A DNA stretch of 40,452 bases from Gallionellales bacterium RIFCSPLOWO2_02_FULL_57_47. Lineage in GTDB: Bacteria > Pseudomonadota > Gammaproteobacteria > Burkholderiales > Gallionellaceae. Positions 2,501 through 18,799 of this stretch are shown here, one piece after another (the first letter of the stretch is position 1; each line of letters begins with the position of its first letter). The position numbers were made by a program, and so were the translations under genes. The stretch covers positions 1 to 40,452 of the forward strand of contig MGWZ01000120.1 in NCBI GenBank assembly GCA_001801175.1. The letters run 5' to 3'. The notes below the pieces were generated by a model. That model searched no databases and was not told the DNA's origin. It saw only the letters and a list, made by a program, of their open reading frames with translations.

Positions 2501-4528
2501 TCAGATTTTCAGGGCACCAGCGCGTAGCAGAAATTCATGCCGCGCCTGCTCATCTCGATCCGCCCCGTAGCGCAATGCGCTGTAGCGCGTGGCGAGATCG
2601 TGAAAGGCATCGGCAAGCTCGGGGCGCACGGCGGCAATGCGTGCCGCATAGTCAAGCGCGCCTTCGTGTGCGGCGCGCGGCAGACCGGCTTTCGCCAATT
2701 TGCGGCACAGTTTGAGCCATGCGGCCTGCACTTTGTCGGGCTGGCGCTTGATCAGGTGGCGCAGCATGAACAGCGCAAACAGCGCGATCACTACCCCCAA
2801 GCCGGATGCCATATTAAGAGCCAGTTTTTGCCAGGTGACGGATTCCATGCCGAGGCGGGTCAGGAAAGCGAATTGGCGTTCGGTGTCATAGCCCAGCACC
2901 CACTGGTTCCACTGGTTGGCAAGCGCGTCCCAGTTCAGGCGCAGGTCGCGCATCCATTGCGGCGGATTGCGCGCCATGAAGGGCAGGGCGGACGTATTGG
3001 ATATCGCGGCAGACAGGCCGCTTTCCAGGCGTGCCGGCGCGATAGCACCGGTCGGGTCAACGCGCACCCAGCCTTGGTTTTTCAGCCAGACTTCCGCCCA
3101 GGCATGGGCATCGGATTGGCGCACGATGTAGTAGTTGCCGACATCGTTGAATTCGCCGCCCAGATAGCCGGTCACCACGCGCGCAGGGACGTTAGCGGCG
3201 CGCATCAGGAACACGAAGGATGAAGCGTAGTATTCGCAGAATCCCTGCTTGCTGCCAAACAGGAAATCATCCACGCTGTGGACGCCGAGCAACGGCGGTT
3301 CGAGTGTGTACTGGAAGCCCTGCTGGTTGAAATAGGACAGTGCGGTACGCACGACAGCATCATCATTCGCGCTGTTGGCGCGCCATTCTGCGGCAAGTTG
3401 TTGCGCGCGCGGATTGAATTGGCCGGGAATCTGCAAGCCGCGCTGAAGCTGCCGTGTTGCTTCCTGCAAATTGGCGCGATAGCCGAGATTCGAGCGTGCC
3501 GCGTAGCGCAGCCGCGCATTTACCGGCTCCTTGCGCATCAACTGAAAGTCGTAAGTGAGTGTGGCCTGCACGGAAAGCTTGTCCGGCATTTCGAGTGCAA
3601 ACAGCCAGGTTTTGTTGTGCGGCTCCAGCGTGACGATGTAATCGGTCTGCTGGCCGAGGTCGGTGAATTGCGGCGCGACGGTGAGCGCGGTTCTGCCGGG
3701 CGTCCAGGTGCGCCCGTCAAATTCCCACAGCACCGGTCCGCGCCAGTACATCTGGTTGCGGGGCGGCGGTTTCCCGTTGTAGCTGACGCGAAACGCCACC
3801 GCATCGGACAGGCTCAAGCGGCTCAAACTGCCCGGCGACATCTTGTCATCCAGCCCGCTGCTGGCATACGCATCCTGCGGCAAGCCCCACAGCGGCCCCT
3901 GCACGCGCGGGAACAGAATGAACAGGATCAGCGTGAGCGGAAGCGCTTGCAGCAACAGCACAGCCGCGATGCGCAAGCGCGGCTTGAGTGCGATGTTTTG
4001 CGCCTGCAGGTGCACCCATGTCGTTACGATCACCATCAAAGCGGCGAGCATGTACAGCGCGGTAGGAATGCTCTGCGAGTAAAAAAAATTGGTGATGATG
4101 ATGAAGCAGGCCAGATAGATCAGCGCCATCGCGTCGCGCGGTTTGCGCAGTTCCATCAGCTTGAGCGCGGCGAGCAGCATCAGCAGAGTGACGCCGACCT
4201 CCCGTCCGAACAGAGTGCGGAAGTTGACCGCGATCCCGCCTATGCCGGCAAAGGTGATCAGCATCAGCAGCCAGCGTTTCGGCAGCGGGTCGTCGCTCCG
4301 ACACGGTGGGGCGGAGCCCTCTGGTGCGGGAGGAGAGACTGGGCGGCCATTCCCGCAATCGGCTCGCTTCGCGAGTAACGTGTCATGGCCGCCGCTGTAG
4401 GCAAGATAAGCCCGCCACAGCAGCAGGCCCAGGCACAAGCTACTGACCCATAGCGGCAGATGCTCGGCGTGCGGCGCGATGACCATCAGGATGCTGAGCA
4501 GGAGTCCGTAGGTGAGATGCTTGCTCAT
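2501..4528 (-). CDS. tgpA: TgpA-like transglutaminase-core membrane protein with an in-frame repeat insertion
   Basis: A 675-residue inner-membrane protein. It has a block of N-terminal transmembrane helices (about residues 5-40 and 85-205), a periplasmic domain with a transglutaminase/protease core, and one more helix near residue 575, followed by a cytoplasmic tail. The catalytic triad is visible as Cys431 (KQGFCEYYAS), His475 (SDAHAWAEVW) and Asp491 (RVDPT). The layout matches the DUF3488/TgpA family. Such proteins accompany MoxR and DUF58 genes, as here, and act in envelope processes that are poorly defined. Residues of about 46-80 (Gly, Pro, Ser and Arg rich) do not belong to the fold: they are the translation of a 103-nt double-hairpin repeat at 4291-4393, inserted in frame in the first cytoplasmic or periplasmic loop. 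Confidence 0.87.
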   Translation of the reverse strand: MSKHLTYGLLLSILMVIAPHAEHLPLWVSSLCLGLLLWRAYLAYSGGHDTLLAKRADCGNGRPVSPPAPEGSAPPCRSDDPLPKRWLLMLITFAGIGGIAVNFRTLFGREVGVTLLMLLAALKLMELRKPRDAMALIYLACFIIITNFFYSQSIPTALYMLAALMVIVTTWVHLQAQNIALKPRLRIAAVLLLQALPLTLILFILFPRVQGPLWGLPQDAYASSGLDDKMSPGSLSRLSLSDAVAFRVSYNGKPPPRNQMYWRGPVLWEFDGRTWTPGRTALTVAPQFTDLGQQTDYIVTLEPHNKTWLFALEMPDKLSVQATLTYDFQLMRKEPVNARLRYAARSNLGYRANLQEATRQLQRGLQIPGQFNPRAQQLAAEWRANSANDDAVVRTALSYFNQQGFQYTLEPPLLGVHSVDDFLFGSKQGFCEYYASSFVFLMRAANVPARVVTGYLGGEFNDVGNYYIVRQSDAHAWAEVWLKNQGWVRVDPTGAIAPARLESGLSAAISNTSALPFMARNPPQWMRDLRLNWDALANQWNQWVLGYDTERQFAFLTRLGMESVTWQKLALNMASGLGVVIALFALFMLRHLIKRQPDKVQAAWLKLCRKLAKAGLPRAAHEGALDYAARIAAVRPELADAFHDLATRYSALRYGADRDEQARHEFLLRAGALKI
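4291..4393 (+). repeat. Double-hairpin element, copy A (inside tgpA)
   Basis: Two hairpins in tandem. Hairpin 1 spans 4291-4340: arm 4291-4299, invariant core 4300-4331, arm 4332-4340, with 7 of 9 arm bases pairing. Hairpin 2 spans 4342-4393: arm 4342-4350 (GGCGGCCAT), core 4351-4382, two bases, arm 4385-4393 (ATGGCCGCC), a perfect pairing. The core of hairpin 2 has its own apical stem CTCGC-TTC-GCGAG. Copy B at 18438-18540 is the same length with the same cores but different arms. The element is read through by tgpA on the opposite strand without a stop. A 10-bp near-direct repeat, GGyCGyCGCT, flanks it. Confidence 0.85.
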
Positions 4529-17576: not shown

Positions 17577-18155
17577 TTATCCTTTGTCGCCGAGCAATTC
17601 GGCATGCCGAAAACAATTCGTTGTATGATCGTTGACCATGCCGACTGCCTGCATATAGGCATAACAAATCGTTGTGCCGGCAAACTTGAAGCCGCGTCGC
17701 TTTAATTCTTTGCCCATCGCGTCCGATTCCGGCGTGCTGGTCGGCACATGGTCCTGGCTGCGCCACTTGTTCAGTCTTGGCCTGCCTTCGACAAACTGCC
17801 AGATGAACGTGTCAAAACTGCCAAATTCATCCTGCACATCGAGAAACTTCTGGGCATTGACCACCGCGGCAGCCACCTTCAGGCGATTGCGCACGATACC
17901 AGCATCCTGCAGCAGAGATTTTATTTTATTTGCGCCATAAGCGGCAATGCGTGCCGCATTGAAATCATCGAATGCGGTGCGATAATGTTCGCGCTTGCGC
18001 AGAATAGTGATCCAGCTCAAGCCCGCCTGAGCGCCTTCCAGAATCAGGAATTCGAACAGACGCCGGTCATCGTGCAGCGGCACGCCCCATTCCTTATCGT
18101 GATATTGCCGATATAAGGCATCATCGCCAGCCCAGGCGCAGCGCTGCTTTTTCAT
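17577..18155 (-). CDS. tag: DNA-3-methyladenine glycosylase I
   Basis: A 192-residue Tag enzyme, which excises 3-methyladenine from alkylated DNA. Visible are the N-terminal CAWAGDDALYRQYHDKEWGVP with the zinc-binding Cys and His, the helix-hairpin-helix region around ILEGAQAGLSWITILRKRE, and the C-terminal His...Cys pair (NDHTTNCFRH) that completes the zinc site. Its ATG overlaps the stop of the CoA-binding gene by 4 bases, which indicates translational coupling. Confidence 0.94.
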   Translation of the reverse strand: MKKQRCAWAGDDALYRQYHDKEWGVPLHDDRRLFEFLILEGAQAGLSWITILRKREHYRTAFDDFNAARIAAYGANKIKSLLQDAGIVRNRLKVAAAVVNAQKFLDVQDEFGSFDTFIWQFVEGRPRLNKWRSQDHVPTSTPESDAMGKELKRRGFKFAGTTICYAYMQAVGMVNDHTTNCFRHAELLGDKG

Positions 18156-18691
18156 GACGCTTGCTCACGACGCGGGTGTACACCGAACTTTACCGCGTCG
18201 CGCCACATGCAGCGGTCCATTACCACGGTGATGCCTGCCCCCCCGGCGCGCTGCGCGGCTTCCTCATGAATGATGCCCTCTTGCAGCCAAAGGTTCTTGA
18301 TGCCAAGCTTGATACAGCTTTCCACGATGGCGGGAACATGCTTCGCCGCACGAAACACATCCACGATGTCCGGCAGTTCGGGCAGGCTTTCCAGGTCCGG
18401 AAACACTTTTTCGCCCAAGACCTCGGCAACCATCGGCCGCACCTCCGTCACGTTACTGGCGAAGCCAGCCGATTGCGGGAGGAGGTGCGCTGCGGCCACT
18501 CCCGCACCAGAGGGCTCCGCCCCACCGTGTCGTGGCCGCACCGGTATGATGCGATAGCCCAGACTCTGCAATCCGCTCGCAACCCGAAAGCTGGGGCGCG
18601 ACTGATTCGGCGAAAGGCCCACCATGGCTATGCTGTGTACGCTGTGCAGCAGTCGGCGGATTTGTTCTGGTTCGGGATTGCTGAAAGTCAT
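18152..18691 (-). CDS. CoA-binding (YccU-like) protein with an in-frame repeat insertion
   Basis: A 179-residue member of the CoA-binding domain family, with a Rossmann-like fold similar to the succinyl-CoA ligase alpha N-domain. The fold is seen in SIAMVGLSPNQSRPSF, GYRIIPV, the helix after VLGEKVFPDLESLPE, DIVDVFRAAKHVPAIVES and LWLQEGIIHEEAA. Function in bacteria is unclear. Residues of about 53-86 (Gly/Ala/Ser rich) interrupt the loop between IIPVRP and MVAEVLGEKV. They are encoded by double-hairpin copy B at 18438-18540, so the protein is about 33 residues longer than usual. VRP occurs on both sides of the insert, as after a target duplication. The start at 18691 is chosen because the longer frame adds non-family sequence. 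Confidence 0.85.
   Translation of the reverse strand: MTFSNPEPEQIRRLLHSVHSIAMVGLSPNQSRPSFRVASGLQSLGYRIIPVRPRHGGAEPSGAGVAAAHLLPQSAGFASNVTEVRPMVAEVLGEKVFPDLESLPELPDIVDVFRAAKHVPAIVESCIKLGIKNLWLQEGIIHEEAAQRAGGAGITVVMDRCMWRDAVKFGVHPRREQAS
18438..18540 (-). repeat. Double-hairpin element, copy B (inside CoA-binding gene)
   Basis: Minus-strand copy with the same spacing as copy A. Hairpin 1 is 18540-18491 (arms 18540-18532 and 18499-18491, 9 of 9 pairing, core 18531-18500). Hairpin 2 is 18489-18438 (arms 18489-18481 and 18446-18438, 9 of 9 pairing, core 18480-18449). Core 1 is identical to copy A over 32 bases. Core 2 differs at two bases only, and both change the apical stem together (CTCGC/GCGAG to CTGGC/GCCAG). 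The four outer arms are wholly different from copy A yet still pair. A 9-bp direct repeat, GGTGCGGCC, flanks the insert. Confidence 0.88.
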
Positions 18692-18799
18692 GGCACGCTT
18701 GGGATTGTAATCATGGCAAGCGGCACGATAGCATTTTTTTGCGTGAAGCGGCGTGGACGGTTTGGGCAAAAACCGTTATGCTGCGCGCCTTCTCAGAAC

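Follow-up and report, generated by a model that had tools for sequence, protein, structure and literature searches.

The window analyzed here, a 40,452-nucleotide stretch of contig MGWZ01000120.1 from the 2.81-Mb genome of Gallionellales bacterium RIFCSPLOWO2_02_FULL_57_47, carries two copies of a mobile double-hairpin element of ~99 bases, the stems of which differ between copies yet are nearly always paired. Inside genes, the element adds ~33 amino acids and keeps the reading frame. Copy 1 (4291 to 4393, plus strand) lies in tgpA and copy 2 (18438 to 18540, minus strand) in a gene for a CoA-binding protein. Both are in open frames, and since both host genes are on the minus strand, the copies are oppositely oriented relative to their genes. 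The features are as follows:

2501 to 4528, minus strand: tgpA, host gene of copy 1 (TgpA_N, Transglut_core, DUF4129)
4291 to 4299, plus strand: copy 1 left outer arm, pairing with 4332 to 4340 (7 of 9)
4300 to 4331, plus strand: copy 1 core C1, with an apical GGGC-GGA-GCCC hairpin
4332 to 4340, plus strand: copy 1 left inner arm
4341, plus strand: copy 1 spacer
4342 to 4350, plus strand: copy 1 right inner arm
Center of 4332 to 4350, plus strand: copy 1 candidate guide
4351 to 4384, plus strand: copy 1 core C2, with an apical CTCGC-TTC-GCGAG hairpin
4385 to 4393, plus strand: copy 1 right outer arm, pairing with 4342 to 4350 (9 of 9)
18152 to 18769, minus strand: CoA_binding_2 domain gene, host of copy 2, with a 33-residue insert
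18435 to 18443, minus strand: right copy of the target duplication GGTGCGGCC at copy 2
18438 to 18446, minus strand: copy 2 right outer arm (9 of 9)
18447 to 18480, minus strand: copy 2 core C2
18481 to 18499, minus strand: copy 2 inner segment (right inner arm 18481 to 18489, spacer 18490, left inner arm 18491 to 18499)
18500 to 18531, minus strand: copy 2 core C1
18532 to 18540, minus strand: copy 2 left outer arm, pairing with 18491 to 18499 (9 of 9)
18534 to 18542, minus strand: left copy of the target duplication GGTGCGGCC at copy 2

The unit is ordered as left outer arm (9 bases), core C1 (31 to 32), left inner arm (9), one base, right inner arm (9), core C2 (34), and right outer arm (9), and shorter variants also occur. 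C1 is approximately the reverse complement of C2, each module reading TCCCGC, a hairpin with a triloop, and CGTGTC, and the second module is a near-inverted copy of the first. Parsing of the sequence agreed with the first-pass annotation, made from the letters of the window alone, in the positions and pairing of both copies, their fixed structure, opposite orientation, and open frames. The identity of core 1 over 32 bases and the two compensatory differences in the apical stem of core 2 were likewise seen; with core 2 delimited here as 34 nt (4351 to 4384 and 18447 to 18480), one further base near its end differs (TGTC in copy 1 versus TGAC in copy 2).

A search for the two cores in the host genome and its relatives, as the first-pass annotation had envisaged, revealed a repeated family. 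The source genome gave 49 matches at E values up to 10, including 33 with E ≤ 0.001; in some cases, two matches are the halves of one copy. Ninety of 150 Gallionellaceae genomes, from 13 of 15 genera, contain a match. A core-2 pattern scan of named genomes returned at least 112 stretches, and among the 80 matches listed, most belong to Gallionella, Sideroxydans, Gallionellaceae, or Nitrosomonadales, with a few others. At the order level, with another copy as the query, 7 of 250 genomes matched, three of them outside the family (74% to 76%); by eye, five loci from these order-level matching genomes have the same plan with other arms, and their right arms are paired less well. The element is placed both within genes and between them, some copies having no long frame around them. 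No plasmid matched at an E value of 0.001. Four viral contigs have a core-2 match and three have the full element with identical flanks; these three IMG/VR contigs (L312, L313, and L315) share a single copy and are either viral or mis-sorted. In L091 (6740 to 6923), L219, L220, L130, and L015, units repeat in tandem every 99 nt, with a 14-nt arm junction between neighbors. A search for an autonomous version, in which a gene would separate the two modules by a long distance, listed five far pairs, which were tandem copies or apparently separate elements. In L103, L152, L167, L179, and L180, reading by eye places the right arm (GGAGGTG or GGAAGTG) a few bases upstream of an ATG, a position in which it might act as a ribosome binding site.

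The insertions can be read against empty relatives. All 29 fetched tgpA orthologues lack the element, with a net difference of 99 nt each, as do 18 of the 19 fetched orthologues of the CoA-binding gene (again net 99 nt), L194 being filled. The proposal of a mobile, protein-compatible insertion was thus borne out, and the same residues were not found as ancestral protein sequence in distant orthologues. Further filled and empty sites were gathered by all-against-all comparison of the retrieved loci, allowing overlaps of 12 to 19 nt and with orthology groups chosen by hand. At 15 sites, both flanks match an empty relative codon by codon without stops, the insert is open, and the net length is 96, 99, or 102 nt; together with the CoA site, all 16 of 16 coding sites have a net length that is a multiple of three, for which selection for frame is the simplest reading. 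Sites failing the codon test, which were not counted as coding, have net lengths of 99 (D, G, and M), 96 (L), 96 and 98 (H/H2), and 98 (T), and site M shows a protein match with a 33-residue gap though the codon test fails. In the CoA protein, the insert is located at IIPVRP. A structure model of this protein gives pLDDT values below 50 to residues 83 to 112 and to the N-terminus (1 to 26), while the rest of the domain is confident; the insert is modelled as a disordered loop that the protein would tolerate. In a gene that we take, by its sequence likeness, to be hrpA, the element occupies one site in at least six genomes from at least three genera. The filled copies (L002 and L187; L039; L041) are all net +102, which one old insertion, transfer between species, or repeated insertion may each explain. 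Split or cut matches within long open frames at query residues ~190 to 205 and ~320, seen in many family genomes, suggest that hrpA may carry further in-frame inserts at other sites.

The CoA site bears on how often the element arrives. A tree built from the CoA gene region with the insert removed places the window copy beside two empty relatives and L194 beside a different empty one. Forcing the two filled rows into one clade was rejected (AU test, p = 4e-39), as was a single ancestral insertion for the two filled genes. Both copies occupy the same base in the same orientation with nearly the same arms. On this tree, the site would have been hit twice, or the element would have been lost exactly several times, or a very short tract bearing it would have been transferred from one species to another. 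Across 21 same-site pairs picked by hand, some sharing rows and some with poorly aligned flanks, copies in different genomes differ at 66 of 1,380 core positions (4.8%) and at 1,449 of 5,832 flank positions (24.8%). This suggests either that the cores are constrained after insertion or that many same-site pairs are recent re-insertions, and the CoA case indicates that the latter can happen. If the insertions are old and shared, then something keeps the cores constant, and simple mobility offers no explanation for that.

The variable stems are nearly always paired. Among the eight arm pairs adjoining the cores in 121 distinct copies, Watson-Crick pairs amounted to 7.42 on the left and 7.12 on the right, compared with 4.59 and 4.48 when partners were shuffled between copies. 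In an alignment of 49 distinct equal-length copies (49 of 50 rows, L143 being left out for its decayed left side), 94.9% of stem cells pair versus 76.0% after shuffling, double-changed cells number 251 versus 78, a double change is seen in 23 of 27 pairs, and covariation scores 0.522, compared with 0.174 after shuffling and no more than 0.150 for slid structures. One of the five measures, further pair types, was not clearly higher (51 versus 47.6 shuffled, a value reached by 45 of 500 shuffles). The proposed arm pairing therefore passed the test of covariation, and the many copies with unpaired arms that would speak against it were not found. The first-pass description of constant loops and variable base stems was right in that the internal loops are constant and the base stems co-vary; it did not hold for the apical stems, which vary too, the apical hairpins (helices 2 and 4) also covarying. 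Given this strong covariation and the 33 own-genome matches at E ≤ 0.001, the likeness of the two copies in the window is far beyond chance.

Part of the stem sequence resembles the target. The flanks of the 121 copies agree best in a 14-nt register (0.437 versus 0.371 shuffled, SD 0.006), and registers 8, 16, and 19 are also above the shuffles, less strongly; the near-direct repeats noticed at first pass are therefore real. The overlap of the flanks varies from 12 to 18 nt between sites, which is odd for a precise enzyme. The sequence GGTGCGGCC stands on both sides of copy 2 and occurs singly, as GGTGCGSCC, in many empty CoA orthologues. Between L010 and L169, the duplicated stretch is GTGCG, and the empty site has nothing corresponding to the core-adjoining bases GGCAC and GAAG; judged from such alignments, the distal half of each arm would tend to be target and the proximal half element. 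The suggestion that the inner arms are copied or selected to complement the target survived in part: at 14 loci, where orthologues, in many cases distant ones, stood in for the actual empty site, the inner center matches the empty target core at 2.59 and 2.83 of 5 positions (permuted, 2.22 and 2.32; p = 0.022 and 0.002), whereas the core-proximal arm halves match the target no better than permuted ones (p = 0.14 and 0.12). These loci are the 14 of 21 sites with an overlap of 14, site U (lineage IV repeats at different loci) being left out, and two of them (F and L) have no inner-center match to the target at all. The signal is modest and suggestive of an inner center that may guide target choice. 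Twenty-two copies at ~14 unrelated places share an inner type within three changes of GTGGCCGCATCGCACCTYC; in them, the left cores are TGCG (16), CGCG (3), AGCG (1), TGCA (1), and CCGC (1), and the right cores are TGCG (12), TGCA (5), CGCA (3), CGCG (1), and TGAC (1).

Our preferred reading, to which we assign a probability of about 0.6, is a non-autonomous, REPIN-like family of mobile DNA consisting of two inverted modules, each closed by a variable basal stem of ~9 bp, which acts as folded DNA, is tolerated as a protein loop, and has an inner center that may help in site choice. The element would move as folded single-stranded or cruciform DNA and be recognized by its constant loops and stem shape rather than by stem sequence. 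Its inner center (e.g., CGCA-T-CGCAC) would pair with a matching target core (GTGCG) and help choose the site, and both basal stems would take their distal half from the duplicated target core. Insertions that stay in frame would survive purifying selection as extra protein loops, and later arm mutations would be matched on the other side, probably via DNA-level template switching and/or selection for the hairpin. In a stronger form, which we offer tentatively and consider rather unlikely, the 8 to 10 nt of the inner center would be a programmable guide pairing with both sides of the target; the guides of different lineages would differ by core (TGCG, TGCC, TGCA, GGCG), change over time, and re-hit the same base across species, while a candidate recombinase would read the constant loops. 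The case for such a guide address was slightly lowered because an argument from L127, that its inner segment is unlike the target and hence not copied, fell: L127, L129, and L136 have flanks in common and differ in the left core.

Mispairs in the arms comprise 28 G-T and 23 A-C among 1,888 arm cells. When the 73 copies whose longest open frame reached at least 250 codons were oriented by that frame, the transcript strand held 18 G-U versus 19 A-C; the counts cover 118 of the 121 copies, those with more than three core mismatches being excluded, and the copies are partly non-independent. Because an RNA stem should favor G-U and no such bias is seen, it is more likely that pairing is kept at the DNA level and acts on DNA rather than RNA. 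A functional RNA element, be it a structure in the mRNA, a mini-intron removed by splicing, or an element causing translational bypass, could draw on the stability of the predicted double hairpin (a prediction with no shuffle control) and on the tolerance of both orientations in genes. However, the wobble asymmetry test lends RNA-level function no support, the insert is open in the gene frame and a multiple of three at 16 coding sites, which splicing or bypass would not need, and an Rfam search over the window returned only two tRNAs, with no family above its gathering score at either copy; we consider this explanation very improbable. Ancestral protein sequence, with which the open frames would also agree, is refuted for tgpA and the CoA-binding gene by the exactly empty orthologues (29 of 29 and 18 of 19) and retains practically no credibility. 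A more serious contender, possible if short of probable in our estimation, is that the arms are complementary only through replication template switching (quasi-palindrome correction), with no guide, the target likeness reflecting a short duplication and an inner arm corrected from the outer one. The absence of an RNA-strand bias in the mispairs fits this, as do the changes between same-site copies (10 compensatory double Watson-Crick-to-Watson-Crick versus 25 one-sided); template switching is known to generate stems and preserve them (PMC8794818), and coding palindromes exist elsewhere (PMC6649704). The recurrence of the GTGGCCGCATCGCACCTYC inner type at ~14 places, with left core TGCG in 16 of 22 copies and right core TGCG or TGCA in 17 of 22, would rather be expected if the inner sequence came first and selected the sites, and the two separate CoA insertions at one base have nearly one inner sequence, although both observations are also compatible with correction after insertion.

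It is doubtful, in our view, that the element is a canonical REPIN mobilized in trans by a resident RAYT or IS200-like Y1 transposase. Inverted hairpin modules of ~100 nt, repeated in the genome and with tandem 99-nt units, fit a REPIN, the host has six Y1_Tnp matches (five above the family cut-off and one below), and IS200/IS605 guides pick cleavage sites by pairing (PMC8266576). Nevertheless, across the 150 genomes, Y1_Tnp is no commoner in carriers (67 of 90) than in non-carriers (50 of 60; p = 0.23), the genome lists being compiled by hand with unlisted no-match genomes taken as the remainder; some of the 23 carriers without a match are incomplete genomes. The 49 Y1_Tnp loci yielded one weak module-like match and none that was convincing. 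No host Y1_Tnp locus is flanked by a well-paired module (L045 to L050 gave only matches with poorly paired arms), one host Y1 gene has its own, different repeat, and the 49-copy consensus has no GTAG foot. A resident RAYT as the mover is thus unsupported by genome association, by the Y1 loci of relatives, and by those of the host itself. A past or shared enzyme is a possible mover, and CGTC REPs have been left without a transposase for similar reasons (PMC3733652). The repeat-bearing host gene (L048, 1192 to 1965, on contig C11) is a Y1_Tnp gene with an inverted repeat (ACCCGCCCTACGG) on both sides that is unrelated to the element.

Our reading of a non-autonomous, REPIN-like family can be set against known systems. 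REPINs resemble the element: their mobile unit comprises two inverted hairpin modules, they occur in tandem clusters, and they have conserved end sequences with compensatory changes in the intervening part. They are described as extragenic and tied to RAYT (PMC3116915), whereas the element is often inside genes with no RAYT linked. Each of its modules is closed by its own variable 9-bp stem, which is partly target-like DNA. Two inverted hairpin modules are present. A RAYT flanked by the same repeat was not seen at the Y1 loci covered, the consensus has no GTAG foot, and the 16 coding sites depart from an extragenic location. The idea of a structure rule wholly different from that of REP-like elements was not supported, since compensatory two-sided changes are already known for REPINs (PMC3116915), and complementary stem variants, as well as in-frame REP dimers that add 20 to 30 residues inside conserved genes, for REPs (PMC3733652). 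Intragenic GTAG and CGTC REP dimers are alike in being in frame in conserved genes and in their complementary stem variants, and the CGTC families lack a dedicated transposase (PMC3733652). In contrast to these, the element has no GTAG foot, and its likeness to the CGTC superfamily is limited to the CGTGTC adjoining the variable arm, with no constant CCA tail in the 49-copy consensus. TGTC variants are noted among CGTC REPs, making a distant tie possible, while the combination of constant internal loops and variable basal stems is not described for GTAG/CGTC REP dimers in the parts of that report compared here (PMC3733652).

The claimed likeness to Rickettsia palindromic elements in protein-compatible insertion was confirmed, in that the palindromic insertions are in frame in unrelated genes and absent from orthologues. 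The hosts differ, the two were compared by description rather than by sequence, and Rickettsia palindromic elements form one long hairpin versus two separate hairpins here. Like the present family, they are protein-compatible insertions in many unrelated genes (PMC3733652). QMITE2 of Coxiella burnetii is similarly a small MITE, with variable direct repeats of 7 to 11 nt and some in-frame insertions, but is 150 to 190 bp long with terminal inverted repeats, and covarying basal stems are not described in the part of its report compared (PMC5896051). IS200/IS605 elements carry a short guide sequence next to a hairpin, and it base-pairs with the site of cleavage or targeting (PMC8266576). One side of the element would share an order of guide, hairpin, and target, whereas on the left the hairpin separates the target from the candidate guide, the target is duplicated, and no TnpA is linked. 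The layout of IS608 was used for this comparison. The overlap of 12 to 18 nt and the outermost bases, which differ between copies, do not suit a DDE MITE, and 23 of 90 carriers without a Y1 match do not suit an IS200/IS605-type MITE. Identity with integron attC sites was considered and dropped.

The element is a real, widespread family of in-frame mobile double hairpins, REPIN-like in build and similar to Rickettsia palindromic elements in its tolerance within genes. None of the open-access papers listed (at most 20 per search) for palindromic elements, REPs, Gallionella, MITEs, and in-frame insertion describes it in the title or the opening of the abstract. In the portions of the literature compared, we saw no account of a separate, partly target-like variable basal stem for each module, of a recurrent in-frame unit of ~99 nt, or of a possible central guide. 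With ~30 copies or part-copies in one genome, and most examined genomes of this iron-oxidizing family carrying an element able to write a 33-residue loop into conserved proteins, it amounts to a natural experiment on how proteins accept insertions. It also provides clear stem covariation in coding DNA with behavior that is not RNA-like, and possibly a new rule by which a tiny mobile element chooses its targets; should the guide step hold true, the recombinase would be of wide interest.

Two other repeats were observed at these loci. A different repeat (CCCTCTCCCC...GAGGGGG) of varying length lies at one tgpA codon (~386) in L076, L213, L215, L216, and L217, with matches in open frames, and some of its copies have a 60-nt hairpin nested inside. 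This second mobile hairpin of ~60 nt (TAACCAGCGACTTGGC, a variable stem, and GCCTAGTCGAATGGCTAGTAGTTYCATCA) is also nested in the element and in itself, at L026, L028, L020, L006, L096, and L140 (inside core 2), L035 (inside core 1), and L017, L113, and L184 (in itself). By eye, its stems look covarying.
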